64,000 nt of DNA from Paramacrobiotus metropolitanus (taxonomy: Eukaryota; Tardigrada; Eutardigrada; Parachela; Macrobiotidae). Below are positions 1,758 to 64,000 of the stretch, piece after piece; within the stretch, counting starts at the first letter, position 1; each line of letters begins with the position of its first letter. The stretch is from assembly GCF_019649055.1 (NCBI RefSeq), contig NW_026570307.1, forward strand, positions 124,001-188,000, given 5' to 3'. The translations under genes and the position numbers were made by a program. The notes beneath the pieces are model-generated. The model was given only the letters and a program-made list of their open reading frames with translations, searched no databases and had not been told where the DNA came from.

Positions 1758-4700
1758 ATGTCTATTAACAAAGAATGTGGCTCCGTTTCTTCATCCGGTA
1801 AGCAAAAACATATTTTTTTAATATGTGAAAGCTTAATCCCGGCTAATTTTGCGCAAAAGTTAGGTAGTCATAATAGATTGTTAATCAATTCAAAACAGAG
1901 TCAAAATTTTGTTATCGTTGTAACTTTGAAAAAAATTTCTACTTATTAGCCCTAAACGTCGATATTAACTTCATTTATAAGAGAGAAAGTTGAGCTAATT
2001 TAAATGTGTGTTGCTTTGTGCCAATACCATTACAGGCATTACTCGTAAGAAAACTCCTTAGAATTACAGTAAGTACTTTACGGAACTATAAGCGATATAA
2101 ACTCACATGAACAACTTTACTTCTAGTGTTTTGGTTTTGACAGTCGTATTGCGTAGAAATTTTGACAAAACCTTTCTTGCCCCTATAATTAATATAAAAA
2201 CTGACTCACAAGGAATGGAGTTTGAAAGATGTGATTTTTACAGTGTACAGACACGAAGATTATAATGCGTTACCTTTACTTATTACACATTACTTACATT
2301 TAATAATTTGAGTCAAGTAGGTAAAAATTAGTATCCGGAATTTCGTTGTTTTTGGAATTTCTTTTATTAAATTTTCTCTGCATGTTTCAAGCAGTTTTGA
2401 AATGATTGACTTAGACTGGCTTTTTAAGCGCAGACTATGTAATGTTATCAAACTAAGTAATGTTTTCAAGGAACCGTAAGCACTCTGACGATTCTGTGTT
2501 CAATAATACATGATTACCCAGTTTGCAGAGTACGAGGGTATACATATCATACTAACGGTGACCTTACACAAAACTGCTTACTTTGTCTGTTTTAATAATA
2601 ACTGAAACAGTGTACTTCGTGCAGGATCAAGCAAAGAAATATAATTACTCCAGGACCATTCACGAATATTCTCGCAAAATATTAAAAATTCAGGATAATT
2701 CAACAAATTCTTTGAACTTAGTACCGTAATGACGCTGATGCGTATTGAGTTAAAGTTTCAGGTAACATGATTTTTTGTAATTGTAATGCTTTTAAGTTTG
2801 CACAAACGTCGAAACAGTAGCCGAAAAGAGCACGTCAAAAAGCCTAAGAGGTGGGATGGTACGGTAATTGACGTTAATTAAGAAATTATTAATTAAATAT
2901 CCAGTAGCGTATCGCAAGGTGCGATCGCGGTGAATCGCCAGGGTGGTCCCCGCGCCCAGTTAGAAGCCACTTACAAATGACTAAAAGTCTCACTGCAATA
3001 AGCTAAAAGTCAGAGACGGAGCAACAATCTTTCCGTTTTCACCACGGCTGAAGCAAATGCAGTCGACATTTGGGCGATTGACAAAAGACAAAACGCACGA
3101 TGAATGGCATGGCTACCGGGCAAAAATGTAGGATTAGCGCATCCAAGCTAACTTTTGGTTGACTGTGTCAATTGACGGAAAAGCAGCACTGGCGTATAGC
3201 TGTGTTCATAACTTGCACTGATCGTCCAAAGAATGTGGTTGGTTATTGTGTCCACCAGTAATTGAACACACGGGTACCACGAATGATCATAATATACACA
3301 AGTGAAGAAAATGAATTGTTCTAGCTTTCTGCCTTTCCGATGAATCGGGCCCGTCCAAAGAAAAGTCGAGTCGACTCTCCATTGTTTGTCACCTGGTGAA
3401 TACAGCAGCACGCAGTAAAGGTCGATGGTAGGGGTGCTAAGAAAGTCTGTTACCAATTGGTGTCCTTATACACATGCTCCCATCCTCGTGTATAGAGCTT
3501 TGGCCATCAAGTGCCGTTGCGTAGGACGCGGAACAAGGCCGGGATTAACACGGCTACCCCCACCTGCGGATTTGTAACATGGGGTCTCTCCCTTGACCCA
3601 TTCATGTTCCCTTTCATTCTAAGCACATTTTATTCTCCCCTATTTTCTCTAGAACAAATTGCTTTGTTTGTAATTTACCAACTGAAGCATAATACTAATA
3701 TATTCTGTATGTGTGCTTTTTCCTCCTAGGGCGGATACTGTTTGACATTCCATGCAAAGTCTGTTCGGATCATTCTTCCGGAAAACATTATGGCATTTAT
3801 GCGTGCGACGGGTAAGTCTTTCGCCTTATGACCAGTGACCACCGTGCGATAATTAGGCTCCAACATAGCTAAGCTACAAACCCAACAGCGCAATGTACTT
3901 AATCCCATTTATACATGACAGTAGTTGCTTATAAAAAACAAATAAAAAGTACATTTTAATTTTACAGTTTTTATTGATAGTTAACTGCAATATGAATTAT
4001 ATGATGCAGTCATGAATAATTCCATCAAAGCACTCAAATTAATATCATTCTATGTGTCCTCGTAGGCTACTTCTACGTAATCTCGTAAGTTTTCGCAAGT
4101 ATGTACAACTGTTCGTTTCTGCACTGGAAAAATGCAGTCGATTAACTACATGTTACATCTCTAAAATTGAGCTTCATCGGGCAAGTTCTTTAATTATTCT
4201 TTTTACTGGTCTTGAGATTGTGATTTGTGCGTCACTTTCAAAAAGTGCCGGTACATTGTACTGTACAACGCAAAGCGTATTATCCCAGACAGCGATGACT
4301 GAAACTGCAAAAGGCTAGCAAAGTCTTCAGTGCCGCATTATTTTGGAGTCCATCGTATGCAACCTTCTAATGTTTCTCCAACAAGCCAACATATACATGT
4401 ACAAAAACCTTTGTCAGGCGATGTTCCCAGCTAGCTTTCCCATGCATATTGTGGTTGAACTTGAAATCACATTTATCCAACACGACAGAATGATTTTCTC
4501 AAGGGCTGTTTCTCCATAGTCATTTGAAAAAGCAGGATTTCGCTTTCGACCAAGATAAACTTCTCTACCTTAACCAATAATAAAATCGTTTACAATGCAT
4601 TTTGTGTCGCCGCAGTGTATTATGAAAATGGGATGTTTGGTATCAAGCCAATCTTACAGAAACTGCTTATCCGGCATTGATGAACAACAACATCACAATC

Positions 4701-7700
4701 AAGGTCGAATAGTTGTTATTTTTGGATTGAGTCAAGTAGAGCCAACAAGTTAGTCTGTAAGGTTGTGTTGTGAATCAAAAGAATAACGCCATGACCAGTT
4801 TTCGCGATCGGTGTTTTTTAAGAGTTAAGGCTCACTAAACACGCATACGGATTTCTAGCACAGTGACGATATTGAGACATGGGACAGGGACAGTTATTAA
4901 ATGGTCAACGGAGCTAAACATGGCGTCGGCCTTTCGACATTGAATGACTCTCGATAAATAAAGAGGAGTCGCCGTACACAGCTGCAACTGGCGACACCAT
5001 CAGTGCAGCGTGGTACGCGCTGCATCACCATCCGCTATACTTGACGAAGGATGAGAATCATTTAATTATCCGGCCGTTTGTTGTTGCTCATAACAATAAC
5101 AGAGGAAGTTGACAAGGCTGCTGCACGATAAAGCCCCTCGTAACATGTAGTAATCTTTTTATAACTTGTTACTCCTCCTTACAAAAGGCTGGCTTCTTTT
5201 GACCTTTTATCAAACTGGTCTGTAAGTATCGCACACGAAACTCGCGGAACAACTTATCGTGCATAGAAAAGTTGAGAGGATCGTTAAACGCGTCAAAGCT
5301 AATCGAACAAGATTTTCCACACAATAATACTTGTCAAATTCTATGCGCGTACAGATTCACAGAATGCTTCAAAGTAGAAAGTATTATGAAATTTTACTAA
5401 CCAGTTCGCAGATATTTACGAAGTGCAATCCAGATTGTTTTTATCTTGGTAACCTCACCTCAACTTCACAAACAGTACTTAAAAAAATGTAAACCTATGA
5501 TGGTGATAAATAAATTAATAATTTAGTAATGTTTATTTAATCAGTATTATTAATTACTAGCCTCTTGTGAATTCTAGTTCGAAACGTCCGACGGTACAGA
5601 TTGTACATTATTGAAAATTAGCATCTGGTATGTCGATTATTTGCTTGACAGGATGTACATGGTATTGTCCGTGTATGTCTTTTCAGCCTGTAGACTTTTG
5701 GACATGATTTGGCATATGAGCCAACAATGGAATCAATCAAGTGCCATTGTCTTACGAGCATTGACTTGGTCTTTTGGCGAGGGTATTGATGCGCACTGGG
5801 TTCTTGAGAACATACTCTGCGGTAGAAAGAATACGCCTTGTTAATCACATCACAGCGGACGCGTTAATTAATGCCATTAACACCATGCGCAATCAGCATA
5901 ATTACCGCCACTCATTCTCATAGTGACTATCTTTCCTTTTTAAATTCGGTGTCGCATCGTACTTGAAAATCGTTTTAGCACTGACCTTTAAATAAAAAAA
6001 TAAAACTTAAGTTATGTATAATAAACAATTCATTTCTGAACTACACAATTCAAAAACAGAACCAACGAAAAGTGAGTGCCGCAGGCTGCCGGTTAAAGTA
6101 GGCGGAGCATGAAACCTTTAATGGTATTTCAGTTTCATAGTTTAATGTAAACAAATCGGAATGTATAACATTATTATTGTCATGCGTCGGTGCTCACAAA
6201 TGTTAAGGGCCTGATAGACACGAATCTTATTAACCTGCAACGAACCACCGAATCAAGTTAACTAATGAAGCATGTTTTGCCTGGTGCGCATTGTATTATG
6301 GCCATCTATTTGTCGCCGGACAATGGAGCATAATTACGACGACCTTCCCTAATTTGATTGGCGTTCAGCATGGCCCCAATTTGGGCAGGGTGATCGAAAA
6401 GGAGACCAGAGTAGAGTAGAGCGCACTTTGTCACTACAAGCACATGGACACAGAGAGAAAGATCAATGGAGTTAGCATGAATAACAAGGGCGCTTTAAAG
6501 TTGCAGTGCAGTTAGTTAAAGGTGACGTTTGTTATGTCGAACAACAATCAAGCTGAGTCGTTGTCGATTTCCACTCTAACAGACTGTGTGTATATATGCT
6601 GCCGTGGACGTGTCAAAAGCATTTTTCCACCACGACAAGTAACCACTTTTAATCAAGGTCTTTCATGTCACTGCGAAACTTGTAGCAACTTTTTACCTGG
6701 ACAATATCTTTATCAAACGATCAGTCGGCATAAAAGCCTGTACAAATTTGCACATGGAGGAAATAAAACAACAGATTGCTTCCATAGTCATAGGGTAAAC
6801 ATAAGCCACCTGGTAAACGGTTTCTAACCAGCTCAGCGATTTCGATTGGCAACTGTAGCTTTGTAAATTGTGATGTATTACTGAAACCGGGGATGTGCTG
6901 AATTTTTGTTATTGATGCCATGAATACAATTTGCTTATTTTACACAGATGTGCTGGCTTCTTCAAGAGATCCATACGACGCAGCCGGCAGTACGTGTGTA
7001 AAGCCCGGGTCCAAGGCAGTTGTCCCGTAGATAAAGCCCACCGTAACCAATGCCGCGCATGCCGGCTGAAGCGGTGTTCGGACGCTGGAATGAATAAAGA
7101 TGGTATTAAAATTTTTAAAAAATGTGCGATACAAATTTATTTTTGAATTTATAGCACAAAGCCGAGCTGAAAGCTAAAAAAGTCTGTAACTTATCTTACT
7201 CACCAAACACATTACTTTTACGGTTTTATCTGTTCTTCTTAAACATAAATATATGCCATTGAGTAAAAAGCTTTATTCAGTGCAAAAGATTGCATAATAT
7301 GTTCAAAAATTTAAGGTAAAAAAACATCCAGTGCAGTGCATAACATTTAATATACTCCGTGACCTTTACAGCTGTGCAACACGAACGAGGTCCACGCCAT
7401 TCTACCATTCGCCGACAAATGGCTAATTTGTACGCCGGTGATCAATCCAGTCCTGTTGATCTCCAGATAACACGCCCCGGCTGTCTGCCTTTAGCGGCAC
7501 CGATGCCATCGTTCCCAGTGTCACCGCTTAACATGTCCATGAGCACCGCTGTCAGTACGGTATTCCACAACACTAGCAGCTCCTTGGCGCTACGGACGAA
7601 TCCCTTTGCCATGACCTTTCCATCCGCATTGCATCGTAGTGCAGCGGTGTCCAGTATGTGCCAGCCCGTACCCAAATACCCTTTCAACTTCGGTCTCTTG

Positions 7701-9106
7701 GGAACGTCCATGGTGCCTAGTCTGGATTTCATGCGGGAATCAGCGGGAAATATTATTTTTATGAATCTGCACTGGCTGCGACAGTTGGCAGCGTTTTCTG
7801 CCCTTCCCCAGTCCGATCAGGTACAACTCGCTCTGGCGTGCATTTCGTACATTTCAACACTAATTTGTAGGTTTGAGCGGTGCATGTACCCTTTCGTATA
7901 ATTAATGAGAAATTATTGGTTTGCAGCTTATATTAATTGAACGAAGCTGGAAGGAGCTCTTTATTTTAACCGCAACACAGCTATACTTTCCCGGCGACAT
8001 TATGAATCTGGCAGCCGCCACACGTAAGCAAAATTGTGAACTTTTACTCGTTTACTTTGCTGCTTCCCAGTACCTTTGGTTTAATGTCCATGCTACAGTA
8101 TACGTAAACTCTGTGAGATTGAACAACTGCAAATATTGAACGCCCGTGTAGGAACCGGCGCGTCGCGTATACTGCAAAAGCTACTGCGAATATTGAACAG
8201 TTGGTTACATTGAACACTTTTAAAGGAACCGGAGGTGTTCAGATTACACAGGTTTTACTGTATTAACATTTGATAATTAGTTATATTCAACTGAACATGC
8301 AGAAATACCGTAATCGGTAATCTAAGGAACGGAATTATGCGAACATTAATATTACATGCATATGGTATACGCATGTGGAATAAATGTGCGAAAGGGCAGT
8401 TTTGATATCTTGTAGATGATCTCTTATATGATGATCAAATACAAACAAGTGAGCAATCCGTGTTTTGCCGTTGCAGGGTATCAAAATAAATCGGAAGCTG
8501 ATTACCGACTCAGCGGTATGGATCTCAAGGTTGACGCCGAAGAGAAAGCACTGGCCGACGACTTTCGATTGTTCCATGATATCATAACAAAATTCCGGCA
8601 AATGCAAGTCGAGTGCAATGAGCACCTTTTCCTGCGCGCCATTCTTCTTTTCAAGCCTAGTAAGCAACCTTTTACGGGTGTACTTAAAAGATTACGCATT
8701 TACCGGAAGCGACCGCACATTACACAATTGTCATTATACGCACAACTTAATCATACATTATTGGTACATGGTGCATTATTAAGTTGCCCTGTGAACTAAT
8801 CCTCATTCATTGCGTTATTCAACAGGTCCGAGTAATAACGACGACGCGCGTCCCGCTCTAACGGAAGTGCAAATGGTATCCGCTCTGCAGGAGCAGGCTC
8901 AAATGAATCTTAATCGCTACATTCAGGCGACATATCCCACCCAGCCCAACCGGTTCGGCAAGCTCCTCCTCATGCTACCAGAATTAAGCCAAGTGTCAGC
9001 CAAGAGTCTGCAGGAATTATTTTTCAAGAAAACCCTGGGCGATGTACCAATTGACACGTTAATTCTTAATATGCATAAAGGATATGACATGCCCAGAGGA
9101 CTCTGA
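1758..9106 (+). CDS. tll: tailless / TLX (NR2E1) nuclear receptor
   Basis: Orphan nuclear receptor and transcription factor; in other animals tll/TLX patterns the embryonic termini and brain and represses differentiation genes in neural progenitors. Exons: 1758-1797, 3730-3811, 6948-7102, 7372-7820, 7927-8023, 8477-8659, 8826-9106, giving 428 aa. All junctions have GT/AG ends and matching phase (1,2,1,0,1,1). The zinc-finger domain spans about residues 22-88: first-finger cysteines 22, 25, 39 and 42, P-box CDGCAG as in insect Tailless, and a D-box with seven residues between C58 and C66, which is diagnostic of NR2E. It is followed by [13 protein letters not shown], the family's T/A-box. The ligand-binding domain (about residue 220 onward) has the [17 protein letters not shown] helix-10 motif and [11 protein letters not shown] before the C-terminus. 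The start codon is the only ATG in a small exon whose phase fits exon 2, yielding SGRILF before the first cysteine (TLX: SRIL). Introns 1 and 2 (1.9 and 3.1 kb) are long for this locus. Confidence 0.95.
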
Positions 9107-51161: not shown

Positions 51162-54100
51162 TCATGTTTTACTGGAAGGAGACGGCGGTTTCCGGCGCGC
51201 TTTCAGATAGGGCGACAGCGTCAGATTCCTTAATCGCTTTTTCTACGAAGCAGACAGCGCTACATTAACAAAATTCCACACGGAAAAGTGAAATAAATTC
51301 AACCTAAAAATACCAAAATAAATAAACTTCAGCGTTGTTAAATACTTACCCTTCTCAGTGGAACCACTTGACTGTTGGGCGTCTTTAATACCAACGAAGA
51401 ATTTGGCCTGGGTGATAAACCCACTGCACGCGTAGGTGAGCCGTCGTTTTCGCGTGATGAGGGGCGCCGAACCCACGAAGAGACGGTGGGTGTCCGAGGA
51501 TCAGCGGTTCCAGGTGTGCGATCCCGCGATGGTCGTTTTGGTGTGCGCTCTTCTAAACCTATACAATTTCGATCCGTTACAACATCTTTCCAGCTGTTTT
51601 CACCTTTTGTAGTTCATTACAGATTATATCGTATCACTTCACTCAATATAAAGCGGAAATGATCTCACATTTATGTATTTATGCTACAGATTTATGCCTT
51701 TGGAGAACTGCTTAAACATTCATAGAGTAAAGAATACAAGCTGAATTAAGAAGACTACCTCGAGGATCCTTTTCGGCTAGCCCAGCAACAATGTTAGGAC
51801 TTGAGCGGTTGGCATTCACTCCTGCATCCCATACAAGAATACGGGTGGAGGCAGTGACAACTTGATAGGGATCCCAGTGGTTAAATGCCACTTCTGTGAC
51901 TTCATCCTCGGTAGCGCTGTTCAAAACCACCGGTGCTTCTTCTGGCTGTCTAGTCTACAAGAGAAGGGCAAACTGCCACTGAATAAGGACTCTTGTCAGC
52001 CAAACGTGACATCGTTCATAAAACGTTGCTGCTTTATCTCTAATTAGAATATTTAGGTGATAGTTAATTGTTACAGAATGAAAAGCGGGCAATAAAAATA
52101 CTGTACTGCAATTACCCGGAACACATATCCTTTTCCACCAGCTGATCCGCAGCCTAACAACTCTCCATCTTGACTAAGGGTGCACTTTGTATAAAACGAT
52201 GAAATGACCGCGCCGGCGTATTGTGCTGTTGGTTGCTCGTGCATTCTGGGACCCACATCAAAGCGATACACGATTCCGTCTCGACAGGCGGCATACAAAT
52301 TCGTCCGGGAAGCATCAAGGGCTAAGGAAGTAAAAGGCAATCCAGAGTCTGACTTGAGTGTTAATACTGACTGTGGCTTCTCTGAGCTTGGCTTGAGCTT
52401 CCGCAAATCCCACAAACGAATGGAACTAAAAATAAAAGTACTGTGATAGGGAGAATAAAATTATAAATCTCAAAATTAAAGCGCCGTAACAAGCCAAAAA
52501 CGCCAAAAAGAAACGCTTGGAAGCTAAATTATGACGCTAATACGTTATAGATTTAAATATGGGAAAGTATAGTTCAGTAGTATGGGAAAATCATAAGTCG
52601 TGTTTGAGAAAAACACATACGAGTACATTATACGGCACACATATATCGTAATGTGTTTATATGCGTAGAAATTCAAATATCAAACCTGTCGGCCGTGCCA
52701 GACGTGAGGAAAGTGTAGGAAGTTTGAAAGACGATATCGGTAATACTGGCGCGATGGGTTGTAGGGTCATCCGGTAATGCTGTGTATACCGCATTTAACT
52801 TCTCCACATTAACCGAATATTTTCCCGGTGCTTCGCGGAAGAGTCGCCGGTACGGAATCCGCTGCCGTGGCACAAAGTCAGTGTGTGCATTCACCAAATA
52901 CGCCACTGGATAGTGATTTCCATCTACAACAGAATATCAAAGAACATTAAAAAGGAACATCTTCACGAGATGCTTAGGTCTACATACAAAACACTCCAGA
53001 GCGAAGATCCCATAACATGCAGTGACCGTCGCGTCCACCGGAAATGAACACATCTGCAAAACAAACCCATGATCGCAACACAGAATCTCACTACTACAGT
53101 TCCCCGTCGGTTTAAATGCGAACTGCCGGAAACTTTTGTACTAACTACAGCAGTTATTCCACATAATTCAATATGTGCAACTTACACATCCACTAACACT
53201 TCGCATACAATTGTAGCTGCCGTAATACTTGTGTACATTGTGTCAGCTAATAATATTTTCGAGTAACCAGTAACCTCTTTTATAATTTCAAGACCATATT
53301 ATGATATTATCGACGAATTTGCCGCACTATTAATTATTTAGTGCCAAGTTACAGCTTATTAACTCAACCTTACTGTTCTGAGTGTCCTTCTGCCAGCTGA
53401 GACATCTAACATTCTGCAAATGTCCAACAAAACTCGTCACCTTCTGCTGCGTCGAACAATCAACAAGAGCGCAGGTCATATCGCCGGAAGCCGTAATGCA
53501 CTGCAGATTCGAGCATCCCGGGCGAAATTTAGCATCCAAAATCGCATGGTTCGGGTGAACCCTCAGTGCTGAAAACATACAAGATGCAATAAAAGAAGAG
53601 AAACGGCAAAATTTCATAAACTGCCGAAGGAAGATCATTTACAGCCCAGATTCACAGGAGGACCGGATTTGGTGTTGCGAAAATGCAGTACTCCTTCTTC
53701 ATCCGCCACGAGCAGGAAATACGGATGACCATAATCTGATTTGTAAAAAGCAATTTTATTACCAGCAGTTTCCATCTGAGCTGTAAGGCTACGTACCGTT
53801 GGGGTAGGCGATCACAGTCGGATCCTGGAAAAATCAGATTCACAATTAGTTAAATATGTTTATCATTTATACCATACGGTTAATAAAAGCAAATTAATTA
53901 TGATCGTCTTGCTGAAGCGACCCCGCATCAAGACCGTATTATCATATTATGCAAACTTGTTAAACTCCTGTTAAGCATCAGTACAATTCACAATAAAAAT
54001 TAATTACAACAACGGTAAAATTTTAAAGTCGCAGGTAAAGAAAATAATTCACATCGCAAATCGAGCATAAGGGAGCTTGTTTTGTCAATTTTACTGCCAA

Positions 54101-55645: not shown

Positions 55646-57674
55646 ATGAACGCTGGAGATTCAGAACGTGAATCAAAACGGCTCAAAATAGATTTGACGG
55701 CCACATCCACAAGTTAGTTTAATAGTTTATACTCGTACGTACCTATTTTGATGTTTATTAATTATTATTACCGTCGACTCGAAGTGTTGATGATTTACTT
55801 GATTTATTACCCAACATCTGTTAATCTTGAATTGTTGGGCTGGTTAGGACTGCATGAGAGGTTCAGCATAGTATTGCTGTTGCTTTCTTACTTACCGTAG
55901 TTGACGTTTCACAGCCGTACAGGGATTTATGTTTTTAAGGCGCATCAGATGTGTCTTCCGCATCAGCACCACGGACTGAATGTGCTTCATCCTCCAAAGA
56001 TGTGGACGACATTCTACGGAGGGGATGTTTCTCCGATAATTTTCGACCAACTAAAGCCGTTTTCCCTCCCGGTTTTCGACAAGTTGTCCCTCCATCGGGT
56101 CAGTGATGAAAGTTCTGTGCGATACGAATTAATCGTGAACTATCGATTTGTTAAACTATTTCTCATTTCTGTATATTTATAATTTATCCAAGTTTTTACA
56201 AGTATTCATTTGTACAAGGTTTTATTGTAAAGTTTAGAAAAGCAGCTTTTCTTGTAAGACATACTTAATTGGAAGTTTAATTTTTCGTCGAAACGCTTAC
56301 AAAACAATCTGTTTGGGTGCTGGGTGTGCCGATACGCAACTACATATTACGCACTGATATTTCGGCTTTGCATGACTGTACGTTAACCGTGCAGCTGGCG
56401 CTTGTAAAGTTATTTTTTTTCAAATTAGTTTTATGTTGTGCTTTTGGTGGTTATGTTCACAAGAATTTCTTTAAAAACCTAAGGTACTATCGAAGTAAAT
56501 TGGGTGACGTCTATTGCTGTTTACCATTTACTTGCATATGCTGCAATGCTTTGCAGATCTCTTGGGTTTCAATTCGGATATTGCTCGTACATTTCGTTGT
56601 CCTCCTGTCGCTGCGTCGCATCTTTCTACGAACATTGACAAGTACTGGGATCTCATGAAATCCAGAAGTATCTCGCTGCAGAAAGCTGGTGGCGCCGTTT
56701 GTGCTGCGTATGAAACGGCATACGGAGACCAGATCGCATTGTTTTCAAGTTTTTTAGCAGCAGCAATAAATGATGGGCAAATACCGGTGAGGAGAAATTC
56801 GGATAATTTAATTTGTGTTTTTGTATATGCCAGATTTTCTGATTATTTATTTAATGTAGTATCAACCGCAAACAACGCGCGAGCGGGTGCTTGCATTGAT
56901 TCACGAGAAGACACAAGACAACAGAATACGCTTATCCCAGTTTATGCAGATGCTACCGGGATTTGAAAGCGTTTGCGAAGAGGATCGGCAGATTTTGCTT
57001 TTGGAAAAACACCTTATAGGTGTTTTGGTACGTTTGGTTCGGCCCTTAGGCGTCGTTTTTATTATTATTATTGGTACTTATTATTATACTGTTACTGCAC
57101 AAGAGTAAGTTGCTTAGCCCATTTAGAATCTCGTTTGACAAATGAATCTTTTATACAGCTGCATCATACACGGTATTTTCGCAAAGGGGAGTGCTATTAT
57201 GTTTCCGGTCCAGAGGAAGTGCATGTCGGCACCTACTGGATGGAAGTGATGGGATTGGATCCTGAATTCATCCGCTTTTGGCTGAAATGTGGCCTCGTAT
57301 TCAATGATATTGGGTTGACCTTGACGGAATGCTATTTATTACTGGCCGCAGCGTTTTTCGATCCAGGCAAGTAGCTTGTTACCGGTTTTATCAGTCGTTT
57401 TGGGGATTTTGAACCACTAATCGCTATTGTCGTTGTAGGTGCTACTGCCGCTTCGGATAAGCTGCTGTTGGGATCTCTTCATGCATTTTATTTAGATTCG
57501 TTGTTTTATTTGATTGGCCATCGTTTACAAGGTGCAGAACGCATGTCCACATACACAAGACTGGAGCAAGCAATGAAAATTTTTCCTGTCCTCAGTGATA
57601 TTTCCGTGAAACAATTTCGAAGTTTGGATGCCGGTAGTGTCCCGTTTGTCTCCACATCTCGCGAATCGACATGA
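55646..57674 (+). CDS. Nuclear-receptor ligand-binding-domain protein A, no DBD
   Basis: Six exons, 55646-55712, 55940-56098, 56557-56786, 56860-57027, 57159-57366 and 57439-57674, give 355 aa with all phases matching (1,1,0,0,1). Residues about 153-350 read as a nuclear-receptor ligand-binding domain: the helix 3-5 signature RLSQFMQMLPGFESVCEEDR followed by QILLLEKHL, helix 7-8 IGLTLTECYLLLAAAFFDPG, and helix 9-10 with a TRLEQAMKIFPVLSDIS motif. There is no zinc-finger domain; the N-terminus is a short polar segment with a basic SKRLK patch and a conserved TKAVFPPGFRQVVPP motif. The C-terminus (SVPFVSTSREST) has no recognisable AF-2 helix. The donor of intron 5 is GC (CCAG|GCAAGT at 57367); the same intron in paralog B has GT. 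By analogy with SHP/DAX1 it could act as a dominant-negative partner; this is inference. Confidence 0.85.
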
Positions 57675-59314
57675 AGCTGAGGAATCTCTTCTTTTCCCCC
57701 TCTGCCAGCCTGGAGATGATCGAGTGCTCATCGCTTTATCATTTTCTTGGGTGATATCTATAGTTTTATTTATTGATATTTCGCACTTTGTGATAGTTCA
57801 AGTTGTGAGTGTCGGTTTAATTTTTTTAATTCTTGAGTTAGTGAAATACATCGTTTGTATCTTTACACCGTTTCACAGATTCTTGTCAGCGTTCGGTTGT
57901 TCTGTCCTAAAGTTCGCGCATTTGCTTAACGCGCTATCGTGCATGTGTACAACAACTGTTTTCTTCATTTTCTCCAGAAAGTTGAACACTTACTGTATAT
58001 CCGAGAATCTCATTTTATATCAAGGAACTGCCTGTAGTTCGATAGGTTATAAAAGTTGGTGAGCGGTTTGAGTCCATATCGGGATAAATCAAAGGTTCCG
58101 CATTAAGTTACTTAATAACGGCGCTGTGTAGCAGTTAGCATCTTGGGATTGTAATTATTTAGTAAGTTAGCAGTTTGAGCGGCCATGTGCAGTGAGATTC
58201 TAACAAGTCTCACACGAAACAAGCGAATAAAATCAGAAATTATTTCGAAAGCGCAAATGTGTACGAGTACGTATACTTACATAACATTATTTTGATAATA
58301 AGTAGTAAACACAATATTCCTACCACAGTACTTCGTACTTGGAGTGAACAGTAAATACTGCACTCTGAATCCAACTCTTACAATTCAAACCTCTGCAGTC
58401 TGCACCTGCAGAGTATAAGAAGTGTAGAAAGACAAATTACAACCCATGTGCAGACGTGTGATATAGTCATTGTATTATACAGTAATTCCGGAAACGAGGA
58501 ATTTAATCGTCAACACCGTTGATCAAAAATTTGCGAGATGGAATTGCAGCGGTGTCCTGTGACCTTGTTACCCATCGGATCCATAGATGCGCACGGCGAC
58601 ACGCTTTCATCGTGCAATATTGCACGATGATTGCGACTACGTATTAATAGTCGCATCGGTTAAATTTACGCCATTTCGACTCGATTACTGTACGTCTATG
58701 CCACTTTAACTTTTATACTAACGTCACTTTCTATTATTAATTTTTCTAAATTATAGTAAGTAACTATAATTTGCAAGCGTACAACAGTAAGTACTTATCT
58801 ACTACTACCTAGCGTTAAAATACTTACGTACTACATAATATCGTGCCCGTTTCTGTAGGACAGTAGGAGTACTGTACTGAGTATCAATTGTATAAAATGG
58901 GTTTTTTATCGTATTTTTTCCATGACTTGTTTCGAACTTCCACAGTAAAAAAAACGGAAAAACGGTTAAATTGTTATAGCGATTACTTAATTAATTATCA
59001 ATTACTTTAAATGCAGTGATTTTCTTTTGGAAGCCATTCAAGCCAGAACAATCTGCGGGCCGCATATCTGCGGTACGATCTTTGCATTGGTTGTACTAGT
59101 ACATACAGATACAGTAGAATTGTGCAGTTCTACTGTATGTGCAAGTTGTAGACTTTAACAGCCGCTACAGTCTACGTTTTGTGGTGGATTTGGTCATTTG
59201 GGAATATTGATTACGATAAGCGATTAATATTTCTGCTAATAATTACTGTATGAAACAGTAGTGAAGTGCTGTTTTATTAATCCACAGCTTTCATTAAGAT
59301 CCGTCACTGCCGTA
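57675..59314. other. Intergenic DNA between receptors A and B
   Basis: Contains the 3' region of A (possible AATAAA at 58226-58231) and the promoter of B. The frame at 57628-58062 overlaps the end of A in another frame and has no motifs. Two hairpin-forming sequences sit at 58607-58655. Confidence 0.45.
58607..58655. repeat. Double hairpin: 24-bp palindrome plus adjacent stem-loop
   Basis: Positions 58607-58630 are a perfect 24-base palindrome centred on CAATATTG. It is followed at once by a second inverted repeat, TGCGACTA (58632-58639) and TAGTCGCA (58648-58655). Confidence 0.8.
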
Positions 59315-61523
59315 ATGGAGGTTTCGGAAGAATCACAGCATCCCGCGAAAAGGTTGAAAAAGCATGATTTGCCTGCTTCCTCGGATGAACATCACAAACA
59401 TTTAGGTACAGTAGTTTTGTGAAAGTTTCCGAAGCATGGTCGAGGCTTTGCAGTTTGTACGGTCTTGAAATAACTGTGCTCTTCGGACGTCAGCGAGATC
59501 GAATACCAATTTCTTAATAGCGGAGACCTAACTCACGCTGTGTGGCAATAGTTATGAACTTATGTATGTGATTCATTGTTCTGCTCATAAAACTGAGATT
59601 ACCGTACTCGTAGAAAGTGCAATGAAAATTTCGTAGTCTACTACTGTAATCGTTGGCAAAGACGCCAGCGGCCAGACTCTTTTTTCAAAAGATTGTAAGA
59701 CTGGACCAAAAATTTAAGATCTGCAGCTGCCACAGACTACCAAACACCAGAGGACGAGTCTGCTTCGTTCGTCAGTGCACCCGTTGAAGACGTGGACATT
59801 CTTTCGAAGGGGCATTTCAGTGAAACGAGAAGGCAATATGAAGATTTCCAGCCGACGACAACAACATTTCCTCCCGGGTTTCGCCGCGTCGTACGTCCCT
59901 GTGGTGAGTGCTTAGTTAGATTAGGTAAGTTTATTTCGAACAGACAGCAGCAAACCTCTGAGAGGCACTCACAATTCTAGTCAGTAACATAAACGGTGAA
60001 CAGTATTTACCATGGTTAATAAAAATTTTATAAACATAAGAAAATTCTGCTCTACGTTGGTTACTTTAACTGTTCGTTATTGCGGTTTGTAACGAGTTTT
60101 ATCAGTTCCTTACTTGTAAATGACTACCTCAGCCCTGCGCAGTGAACGCTGTTAAAAAACATTGTTAAACTGAAAATACCAATTTGCGAAGGCAAGTGTT
60201 TTTGAATTCATTAAAAAATTAAATTGCATTTTGTTTGCCTTTTGTTAAAAAAACGGTTTTGTAATTCTTATGCGAGCTGCGGGTTGCTGTGCACAAAATT
60301 TGCCGTTGGTAATTGAACGAGGACAAACAGGTTATGCAGTTAAAACTAGCACTGTAAAACAGTAAAACTGTGTGTTTACTGTTTACATGTTATTCTGTGT
60401 ACTTCAGATCTGAGCGCGTTGGATTTAAATATGGCGAATGCATTTCGGAAACCAGCAAATGGATCGAATAATTATTCCTATTTCAACAAGTACATAGACC
60501 TTACCACAAGCAGAAATACAATGCTGCGGAAAGCTGGTGCTGCTGTTTGTGCCGCTTATGAAATTGCCTATGGAGATCAGATTGCGTTATTTTCCGCGTT
60601 CATGGCATCGGCGCTGGAAAAGGGACAGATACCCGTAGGACTATGGGCTGTTCCCTTTGTGTATAATAATATTATTAATTTTTTTTTGTCAAGTAATAAT
60701 AATAGTTTCCCGGACTGCTGCAATAATTTGCGATTCTGTTACAGTATCAACCGCAGGCATCACCGCAATATGTGCTTCAGCGGGTTCAGGAAAAAAATGA
60801 GGAAAACAAAACTCGCCTGGCACAATTTGCTTACATGCTGCCGGGCTTTGAAAACATTATCGAAGAAGACCGAAAAATTCTGTTTTTGGAGAAGCACCTG
60901 ATGGCTATTATGGTGCGTCTTGCTTTTTGGTGTGCGCCTTGTCTGCTGTGGTTCAGTATGTTTAGTTTTGTAGCTGCACCACATGAAGTACTGCCATCAA
61001 GGAGAGTTTTATTTTGCTTTCCCAGGACCCGAGGATGTTCATTTCAACAATTACTGGATAGACATTTTGGGTGTTGATCCCGATTTCACGAAGTTTCTTT
61101 ATAAATGCACTGCTGTTTTCAATAGTATTGGACTCACACTTACCGAAACATATTTATTGTTGGCCGCAGCATTTTTTGATCCAGGTTTGTAGCCATCGAT
61201 GGATTCGATACTGAGTGATGGATTGGAATAGCGTAAATTATTGAACTGTACCAATCTTTCCGTTTGTCTTTTTAGGCAATACTAGCGCTTCGGATAAAAC
61301 CTTGTTGGGACAACTTAATGCTTTTTATCTGGAAGCCTTACTCTACATGATCGGCTATCGACTGGATGATGCGGAACGCCCTGTTGTGTACAGAAAGCTG
61401 GAGGAAGCGATGAAAATATTTCCAACTGTTTCCCAGGTTTCAGTTTACCGGTACAAAAACATCGATTACAGTAGTCTTCCCGCACTTTCGCGGACATTTA
61501 TGCGAGAATGTCTTCGACGTTGA
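59315..61523 (+). CDS. Nuclear-receptor ligand-binding-domain protein B, no DBD
   Basis: Paralog of A with the same six-exon architecture: 59315-59405, 59727-59903, 60408-60634, 60745-60912, 60974-61184, 61276-61523; 373 aa and identical intron phases. The start gives MEVSEESQHPAKRLKKHDL with a basic patch like A, then TTTFPPGFRRVVRP, then a shared block with AGAAVCAAYEIAYGDQIALF. The ligand-binding domain (about residues 166-360) has RLAQFAYMLPGFENIIEEDR, IGLTLTETYLLLAAAFFDPG and YRKLEEAMKIFPTVSQVS. No DNA-binding zinc fingers are present or could be found upstream, where receptor A ends 1.6 kb away. The C-terminal helix is replaced by SLPALSRTFMRECLRR, which lacks the acidic AF-2 pattern. 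Intron 5 uses a normal GT donor (CCAG|GTTTGT). Subfamily within the receptor superfamily is not clear. Confidence 0.85.
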
Positions 61524-62196
61524 CTTGTCTGCATTGCGCCCTTTTACTTATTTGGATCTGACAAACGTTGTGATATACGTACGCGAGTCTTAGAGCGAGT
61601 TGGTGTATACATTTGTTTTTGAGTTTTAGCGCAGTCTTCGAGAATAATGGTCATGGGCCATTGCGTTTATGTTATTTTTAAGTTTTATTTGGTTCTTAAT
61701 TTTATCTGAACACTATGAAGATAGTTGTACTTTATGCAGTTCTGCATTGTGATGCAAATGCAGTTGTGATTTGTAATGATCATTTAATAATTGTCCGATC
61801 AAGTAACTCTGATAAATCGATGTCAGTAAACTGGAAATCACCGTTAAGCGTAAACTGTAAACCGCTTAATAATGTTGTAACATTCTTGTATGACCATGGC
61901 ACGATACGAATCATACGATTATGTAAGTGTCACATAGGTAATAAGGCACTGCATCGATTGCTTCCTGTGAAGCCCCATTTGCAGTCTGCCGGTGCTGTAG
62001 CTGCCTGATATTCCCGACGCGATCTGGAAACTGCCTCCTGCTTTTTCTTTTCGTAAAATCTGCGTGCGCATATACTGCACGTAAGTGTATCTGCTAATTG
62101 TATGGATTTATTTTCATATCTGCTTCGGTTAAATGTACTTCTGCGGAATTCTCAGAAAACCTTCACAGTAGAATGCATATGCCTTACTGAAAATGC

Positions 62197-63273
62197 AATA
62201 ATTATAATATGTTTCTGTAATACAAGGAGAAAACATTAAGTGTACTAATTTATACTATATTATATTTATACATATTTATACATTCTTATTAAATCAAAAA
62301 AATCTAACTAACTGTGACATAAATAATTTTTCATAAATAATAAATAATAACTAACTGTGACATAAATACTTGTACGGTTCTAGAGCCTACTCGTAGACTA
62401 CCAGAGTGCACGTACTGCACCAGAGATTCATGATCAGAGCCAAATCGATCGAGCACCGAGCATTGGTTTTACAAAAATATACGACTGACTGCAGCTGCAT
62501 GAACGATACAATAATACGTCACTGTGCATGTGAGATTGTAAGTACAGCATAGTGCGCCATGCATGCACTTTCGTTTCCATCTGGCCGATCGTAACAAACC
62601 ACTGCGAGAGATACGAACCTGTACCGAAATTTCAAAGCTTCGGAGGAATTCGTTAGACTTTAGAGACTTCATCGGTACCTTATCGTGATGGATGATTCGT
62701 CAGAACCGGTTGAAAATGTAAAGAGATCAAAGCGGAGTCATCCTGGGAACAGAGGTGAGACTGCAGTTCTGTTATATATATATATATCTACAGAAGTATT
62801 CAGGTAAATTAACAATCCATGTATAATGATTTGTATGTCTTCGGGTAATTTGGCATTACTTGTTGTTTGCAAGGTGCAGATTTCTCATTTCTGCATTAAC
62901 TTTATTGAACTGCTTGCCAGACACAGACTGCAGTTAATATTGTTTGAGTTTCCGCAGATGATCCACCATCGGCAGAAGAAGTGCAGTACGAATCTGTATC
63001 CTCCGTATTCGAAACCCTAAACAAATTGGAAGTGGAACATCTGCTGCGTGGACGGTTTAAGCGGGATTTCCTACCTACTGAGGCGACTTTTCCTTCTGGT
63101 TTCCGCAAAGTTGTGCAGCCTGCCGGTCAGTGTCAGCACCTTATTCGGATAAACAGAAAATATCCATACTTAAGCATATCAGATTAAATTTTTTGATACT
63201 AGTAACTCAGTATAAAATTTATTACAGCATGTTCAAGTTTTTCCTTTTTTAGAAGCATTTTATGTTTTATCTT
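62197..63273. repeat. First unit of a 1,076-bp tandem duplication
   Basis: The sequence from 62197 recurs from 63274 to the window end. The 727 bases that can be compared differ by one A in a poly-A run (62296-62302 against 63372-63377). The unit contains the promoter region and exons 1 and 2 of receptor C. Confidence 0.95.
62688..63125 (+). pseudogene. 5' exons of receptor C (LBD exons absent here)
   Basis: Two exons, 62688-62754 and 62958-63125, match exons 1 and 2 of A and B in length, phase and motifs: a polar start with a basic VKRSKRS patch and, at the end, TEATFPSGFRKVVQPAG. The frames are intact and both donors are good. The ligand-binding exons 3-6 do not follow; instead a second copy of the same unit begins at 63274. 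It may be a truncated gene, or an alternative first-exon cassette of a gene whose remaining exons lie beyond the window. The pseudogene label is therefore provisional. Confidence 0.6.
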
Positions 63274-64000
63274 AATAATTATAATATGTTTCTGTAATAC
63301 AAGGAGAAAACATTAAGTGTACTAATTTATACTATATTATATTTATACATATTTATACATTCTTATTAAATCAAAAAATCTAACTAACTGTGACATAAAT
63401 AATTTTTCATAAATAATAAATAATAACTAACTGTGACATAAATACTTGTACGGTTCTAGAGCCTACTCGTAGACTACCAGAGTGCACGTACTGCACCAGA
63501 GATTCATGATCAGAGCCAAATCGATCGAGCACCGAGCATTGGTTTTACAAAAATATACGACTGACTGCAGCTGCATGAACGATACAATAATACGTCACTG
63601 TGCATGTGAGATTGTAAGTACAGCATAGTGCGCCATGCATGCACTTTCGTTTCCATCTGGCCGATCGTAACAAACCACTGCGAGAGATACGAACCTGTAC
63701 CGAAATTTCAAAGCTTCGGAGGAATTCGTTAGACTTTAGAGACTTCATCGGTACCTTATCGTGATGGATGATTCGTCAGAACCGGTTGAAAATGTAAAGA
63801 GATCAAAGCGGAGTCATCCTGGGAACAGAGGTGAGACTGCAGTTCTGTTATATATATATATATCTACAGAAGTATTCAGGTAAATTAACAATCCATGTAT
63901 AATGATTTGTATGTCTTCGGGTAATTTGGCATTACTTGTTGTTTGCAAGGTGCAGATTTCTCATTTCTGCATTAACTTTATTGAACTGCTTGCCAGACAC
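63274..64000. repeat. Second unit of the tandem duplication (cut by window end)
   Basis: Near-identical to 62197-62924 and in the same orientation; the window ends before its exon 2. More units could follow. Confidence 0.95.
63764..64000 (+). CDS. Receptor D, first exon only (partial at window edge)
   Basis: Exon 1 (63764-63830) is identical to exon 1 of receptor C, with the same ATG and GTGAGA donor. The rest of the gene lies outside the window. If it is complete it should continue with a PSGFRKVV-type exon 2 and four ligand-binding exons, as in A and B. Confidence 0.55.

Follow-up and report, generated by a model that had tools for sequence, protein, structure and literature searches.

A head-to-tail pair of genes in the genome of the tardigrade Paramacrobiotus metropolitanus appears to belong to a large family of nuclear receptors in which no DNA-binding domain (DBD) was detected. 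The stretch of DNA analysed (hereafter the window) comprises 64,000 nucleotides of contig NW_026570307.1 (C87), and the two six-exon genes, A and B, occupy window positions 55646-61523. Judged by sequence, A, B and their relatives encode a nuclear-receptor ligand-binding domain (LBD) of NR1-like type, and the large DBD-less family that they form is real and probably functional. The reading favoured here, to which we assign a probability of about 0.6, is that of a lineage-specific family with Group 5-like DBD-bearing relatives, from which the DBD was shed and whose LBD proteins would act in trans.

Extent of the family and selection on the ligand-binding domain

A genome search with protein B gave at least 137 exon matches, and the locus counts derived from it are lower bounds. 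By position and best match, at least 22 loci lie in or near the clade of the window genes (3 on C87, 15 on C32 at 636-933 kb and 4 on C314), 15 of which were modelled and placed in the tree. The lineage-expanded tandem family proposed in the original prediction is therefore borne out. At least eight further DBD-less relatives are intact (C32_119k, C93, C14_957k, C37, C29, two on C52 and C80_328k), and elsewhere there are four or more copies that are broken or fragmentary (C59, two on C424 and one on C69). The exon 2 motif [TASF][FI]PxGFR[KRQ] is present in 14 of the 15 clade models, the fifteenth, A, reading VFPPGFRQ; TFPPGFR.VV, which had been taken as private to the window genes, is thus one form of a pattern found across the clade. 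A similar motif occurs in the DBD-less C37 and C29 and is unconvincing in the DBD-bearing relatives, and it is not used as an argument here.

Genes A and B encode proteins with 51% identity whose frames are open throughout, and they have the same intron phases (1,1,0,0,1) and GT-AG splice sites, with the exception of intron 5 of A (GC-AG). When each gene was used in turn as the query for the other in a spliced aligner, exons 3-5 were recovered in both, as were the exon 2 donor and the start of exon 6; the aligner disagreed on the start of exon 2 and on the C-terminus of A, and those ends are provisional. The exon models and the spliced alignment of the gene cores agree with the earlier description of two complete genes that share their intron phases. 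That description had also included two 5' fragments, and exons 1-2 are indeed present twice downstream of B, but the fragments are the 5' part of a single third gene, C/D, and a tandem copy of that part. Each duplicated unit contains the upstream region or promoter together with exons 1 and 2 of gene C/D, and 1076 of 1076 aligned bases are identical between the units, with 1-bp indels. The 1,076-bp duplicate is either very recent or else an assembly artefact. The LBD exons of C/D lie beyond the window edge, at window-equivalent 65057-66325.

Of the 15 clade members that were modelled, 14 have an LBD frame that stays open to a plausible end. The ratio of nonsynonymous to synonymous substitution rates (dN/dS) within the clade has a median of 0.22 and a range of 0.16-0.35 (55 of 78 pairs, with dS<1.6), and the wider median is also 0.22 (62 of 276 pairs of 24 rows). 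On these ratios the LBD is under purifying selection, and the clade median argues against decay.

Identity of the ligand-binding domain

The assignment to the nuclear receptors is carried by profiles rather than by single proteins. More specifically, a profile built from 9 of the 15 modelled members of the clade matched, at E<=0.001, 38 PDB sequences, each of them LXR or VDR (best 1e-7), in an alignment spanning helix 3 to near the C-terminus; SHP and DAX1 were absent from these 38 matches. A wider family profile (15 rows, both DBD-bearing and DBD-less) reached a best value of 1.6e-16. When A was searched singly against Pfam Hormone_recep, the match was weak (E=0.014, below the curated cut-off), and the same search gave no match for B; 3 of the 9 clade members searched in this way gave E<=0.1, and phmmer with A alone found VDR/LXR at 7.5e-4. 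A genome-wide Hormone_recep search gave 18 matches, none of which corresponds to these DBD-less genes. The claim of a nuclear-receptor LBD is therefore upheld by the match of the clade profile to LXR and VDR, while the Hormone_recep profile suggested as a check finds A weakly and B not at all. In all 15 clade models exon 4 has a length of 168 nt.

Apparent absence of the DNA-binding domain

The Pfam zf-C4 profile gave 63 matches genome-wide, approximately 45 loci by our own grouping, and at least one match in all seven recognised DBD-bearing relatives. The number of loci fits the 42 genes reported for P. metropolitanus (PMC12941274). The same search gave no match on C32 (a 1.28-Mb contig), C314, C93, C69, C37, C52, C29, C59 or C424, and on C87 it matched solely at window 3750-7098, within a separate receptor 48 kb upstream of the pair. 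None of the 15 modelled clade members has a zf-C4 match nearby or a detected DBD. When the window was scanned with a zinc-finger pattern, the only matches were finger 2 of the upstream receptor and a chance-looking one on the minus strand near 54.1 kb.

Forty sequences were also scanned in spliced form with three DBD queries, shuffled sequences serving as the null, and the DBD-bearing genes stood apart from the rest. With the canonical query, for which 76 shuffles peaked at 84, four genes scored 192-199 and two scored 95-125; with a lineage query, for which 120 shuffles peaked at 88, C80_319k scored 124 and C69_457k scored 110, in both cases owing to a lone finger 1. The best clade member scored 85 with the lineage query, under the shuffle maximum, and none rose above the null with the canonical query. 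Thus the zf-C4, pattern and spliced scans all support the earlier statement that no gene of the cluster encodes paired zinc fingers, and no upstream zinc-finger exon was found in the sequence. Upstream of the DBD-less C14_957k, at a distance of 14 kb, a match to finger 1 proved to be part of a different gene, one that has DBD and LBD exons itself.

Relatives with a DNA-binding domain and its apparent loss

Within the same genome, a canonical DBD is present in C14_951k, C14_864k, C40_51k and C140, a DBD with an unusual finger 1 in C80_335k and C96_264k, and finger 1 only in C80_319k and C69_457k. One genome therefore holds four forms side by side, namely genes with a full DBD, genes with a variant finger 1, genes with finger 1 alone and genes that lack the domain, which makes the steps of domain loss directly testable. 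Exon 4 measures 168 nt in five of the six modelled DBD-bearing relatives (C40_51k was modelled at 156). In a tree of 34 rows, the canonical DBD-bearing rows are basal and the two variant-finger rows are nested among the DBD-less genes. A single clade of all 25 DBD-less rows was rejected by the approximately unbiased (AU) test (p_AU 5.16e-8); a single clade of 23 DBD-less rows, a set picked post hoc from the tree, gave an AU p of 2.4e-4. The DBD-less label requires a minimum of three changes on the tree, and by our own count the tree would imply about six losses if loss is irreversible. On C14, the DBD-less gene at 957k is flanked by DBD-bearing genes at 951k and 972k. The DBD thus appears, on this tree, to have been shed several times within the family.

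A plausible route of loss is partial tandem duplication that leaves the DBD exons behind; such partial duplications do occur, as the exon 1-2 duplicate in the window indicates, provided that it is no artefact. A more far-reaching version, in which recurrent loss, plausibly by this route, freed LBDs to form a large ligand-sensor repertoire working combinatorially through a few DBD-bearing siblings, is possible but doubtful.

The relationship of these receptors to the tardigrade Group 5 was assessed by scoring published motifs (PMC12941274). Motif 4 scored 45-62 in the DBDs of four relatives, as compared with 23-34 in five other receptors of the genome and 17 in the variant C80_335k. Motif 6 scored 56 in C14_864k and 52 in C40_51k, as compared with 13-38 in the DBD-less clade and 11-25 in three other receptors, and motifs 3 and 5 did not separate the family from other receptors. 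The tree, the 168-nt exon 4 and motif 4 together point to an ancestry shared with Group 5-type DBD-bearing receptors. The motif matches also speak for a tardigrade source, for which an ordinary FABP-like gene, the one product of a lipocalin/FABP approach, was uninformative. The subfamily of the C14_951k DBD was left unassigned, as its best phmmer matches were unspecific (oestrogen receptor, ERR and Rev-erb). Four strong DBDs were inspected by eye, and none of these is RXR-like.

Several loci show departures from the canonical DBD. The two finger-1-only genes, L022 (C80:323405-323479) and L028 (C69:454586-454660), have a diverged finger 1 of the form C-x2-C-x15-C-x2-C and an unrecognisable finger 2, and both were missed by Pfam zf-C4. 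In L024 and L036 the P-box region reads CNSCAAFF and CNGCAAFF, respectively, in place of CEGCKAFF, and their DNA specificity is likely to be altered. L052 (C14:962400-972390, minus strand) is a Group 5-like receptor in which an intron splits finger 2, and for this reason Pfam saw finger 1 alone.

Proposed function and alternative explanations

An AF-2-like motif (PhiPhiX[DE]PhiPhi) ends the protein in 12 of the 15 clade members, including B (FMRECL), and the strict AF-2 pattern is found in 12 of 25 DBD-less rows as compared with 6.2% of shuffled ends. The C-termini had been described as devoid of an AF-2 helix, which holds for A but not for B or for most of the clade. A basic patch in exon 1 (KRxKR-like) occurs in 9 of 17 genes, namely A, B, C/D and 6 of the 14 C32/C314 loci. 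Under the favoured reading of shed DBDs and action in trans, the basic N-terminal patch may carry each protein into the nucleus unaided. There, its LBD could pair with that of a DBD-bearing receptor (a Group 5 sibling or a partner of RXR/EcR type), its AF-2-like last helix could bind cofactors, or both, and the output of the partner would then change in response to a ligand or stress metabolite. Of all copies, the AF-2-lost A and D would be the likeliest to serve as dominant-negative partners, and the diverse tandem arrays could constitute a sensor repertoire, as has been proposed for the spider-mite HR96-LBD genes. Speculatively, the genes are candidate sensors of desiccation or of dietary chemistry.

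Several observations weigh against this reading. To begin with the DBD, Pfam missed finger 1 in both finger-1-only genes, where it is visible only to the lineage-specific query, and a diverged finger elsewhere could therefore escape detection. With the third query (the C14 DBD), L015 reached 86 where the shuffles peaked at 79; the signal is made up of five scattered pieces, two of which fall in the LBD exons of L015 itself, and was read as chance. A DBD that is present but lies far upstream, or has diverged too far to be detected, is nonetheless extremely improbable, given that no clade member exceeds the null of the lineage query, that C32 and C314 carry no zf-C4 match and that the sole match on C87 belongs to another receptor. 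The tree is a second point, as several of its deep nodes are weakly supported (85/67, 83/43).

A third point is that, among the 22 loci in or near the clade, 7 are disrupted or fragmentary, exon 6 of gene D being degraded and exons 1-2 of C/D duplicated, as might be expected of a functionless cluster of decaying pseudogenes. The open LBD frames of all but one of the modelled members and the low dN/dS over 55 pairs make this very unlikely, and the frameshifts could also be errors of long-read assembly.

The remaining points concern the functional motifs. A, D and L004, as modelled, have no AF-2 motif, and the basic patch was not found in 8 of the 17 genes. The helix 3 charge-clamp lysine, which is present in VDR (FAKMIPGF), C40_51k and C14_864k, is missing from the clade, where A, Q, Y or H stands in its place; AF-2 coactivator binding may therefore be altered or lost. 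Together with the undetected DBD and with large tandem arrays reminiscent of other binding-protein families, the missing lysine and the missing AF-2 motif of A and D are compatible with ligand sinks or carriers. These would be LBD proteins of the nucleus or the cytoplasm that act as buffers for small lipophilic molecules independently of any partner. Such a role appears unlikely, since neither the AF-2-like end retained in most clade members nor the nuclear-type basic patch would be needed by a sink; the former in particular makes a plain sink less likely.

Strict dominant-negative repression in the manner of SHP and DAX1 would have LxxLL-like motifs occupy the AF-2 surface of partners and recruit corepressors. 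The missing DBD fits this model, as does an LxxLL overlapping the C-terminal helix in 7 of the 15 clade members. The LxxLL motifs of SHP and DAX1 are located in the N-terminal part, however, where the modelled clade members have none, and the nearest PDB relatives are the NR1 receptors LXR and VDR, so that this model is quite improbable.

Gene models and neighbouring features

The coordinates of the gene models and of the upstream receptor are given in Table 1. Finger 2 of that receptor resembles the NR2E (tailless/PNR) type. Exons of a WD40-repeat protein (weak Pfam WD40-type matches) lie at window 52071-53638 on the minus strand and are transcribed away from gene A.

Table 1. Positions of receptor genes and of the tandem duplication in the window.
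Feature	Position in window	Strand	Remarks
Separate nuclear receptor with DBD and LBD	3750-9034		zf-C4 6916-7098, Hormone_recep 8852-9034
Gene A exon 1	55646..55712	+	ATG; basic patch SKRLK
Gene A exon 2	55940..56098	+	VFPPGFRQVV motif; acceptor without independent confirmation
Gene A exon 3	56557..56786	+	family block QKAGGAVCAAYETAYGDQI
Gene A exon 4	56860..57027	+	168 nt; LPGF, helix 3-5 signature
Gene A exon 5	57159..57366	+	208 nt; IGLTLTE, helix 8 region
Gene A exon 6	57439..57674	+	C-terminus without AF-2-like motif
Gene B exon 1	59315..59405	+	basic patch AKRLKK; start codon provisional
Gene B exon 2	59727..59903	+	TFPPGFRRVV motif; alternative start 59736 (in-phase AG)
Gene B exon 3	60408..60634	+	
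Gene B exon 4	60745..60912	+	168 nt; LPGF signature
Gene B exon 5	60974..61184	+	211 nt
Gene B exon 6	61276..61523	+	AF-2-like FMRECL at end
Tandem duplication, first copy	62197..63273	+	upstream region, exons 1-2 of C/D
Gene C/D exon 1, first copy	62688..62754	+	basic patch VKRSKR
Gene C/D exon 2, first copy	62958..63125	+	TFPSGFRKVV
Tandem duplication, second copy	63274..64000 (to window-equivalent 64350)	+	cut by window end
Gene C/D exon 1, second copy	63764..63830	+	start found directly; end from 1,076-bp offset

Comparison with known receptors

A tardigrade family of DBD-less receptors was not found in searches of an open-access collection, which excludes subscription papers and preprints, and for DBD-less receptors generally the sole directly relevant match in that literature was a spider mite paper (PMC10435515). 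Receptors are usually surveyed by way of the DBD, and single members here score under the Pfam LBD cut-off, so that the family is easily overlooked on either count. The published tardigrade Group 5 consists of C4-type zinc-finger proteins. As far as the available sections of that study describe them (PMC12941274), Group 5 proteins resemble the present family in their tandem duplication, in the motif 4-like DBD of four relatives and, to a varying degree, in LBD motifs 3 and 5; unlike the present genes, however, the published set was collected by zf-C4, so that DBD-less genes would escape it, and no description of such genes was found in those sections.

Vertebrate SHP and DAX1 had been regarded as the known case of receptors of this kind, but the accessible parts of two papers add ctenophores (PMC3038971) and the spider mite (PMC10435515). 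SHP and DAX1 (NR0B) are heterodimeric repressors with an LBD and no zinc-finger DBD (PMC3038971, in the part available). The tardigrade genes share the missing zinc fingers, but SHP and DAX1 are not their nearest PDB LBDs, no N-terminal LxxLL was seen in the clade members and the family is tandem-expanded. In ctenophores, the same portion of that paper describes two DBD-less genes in Mnemiopsis, in whose genome the DBD was not found elsewhere, and one in Pleurobrachia (PMC3038971). These too are invertebrate LBDs without a DBD; the tardigrade, in contrast, has tens of genes, together with DBD-bearing relatives.

The closest precedent is the set of 47 genes with an HR96-like LBD and no DBD in the spider mite Tetranychus urticae, and receptors of this kind are therefore already known; RNA interference against the DBD-less HR96-LBD-1a/b shifts the expression of detoxification genes there (PMC10435515, in the sections available). 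In both animals, on the description in those sections, a DBD-less, tandem lineage expansion with an NR1-type LBD exists beside DBD-bearing relatives in the same genome. The differences are that the mite genes originate from HR96, whereas the tardigrade genes have Group 5-like relatives and finger-1-only forms, and that function in the mite is established by RNA interference (PMC10435515), whereas that of the tardigrade family is proposed from sequence. A second large DBD-less radiation beside that of the spider mite would suggest a recurrent evolutionary route. If the far-reaching version of repeated loss outlined above is correct, the tardigrade family would have arisen in parallel to that of the spider mite and independently of it, and the shedding of the DBD, unseen by surveys based on zf-C4, would be a recurrent path to xenobiotic- or stress-sensing repertoires in animals.

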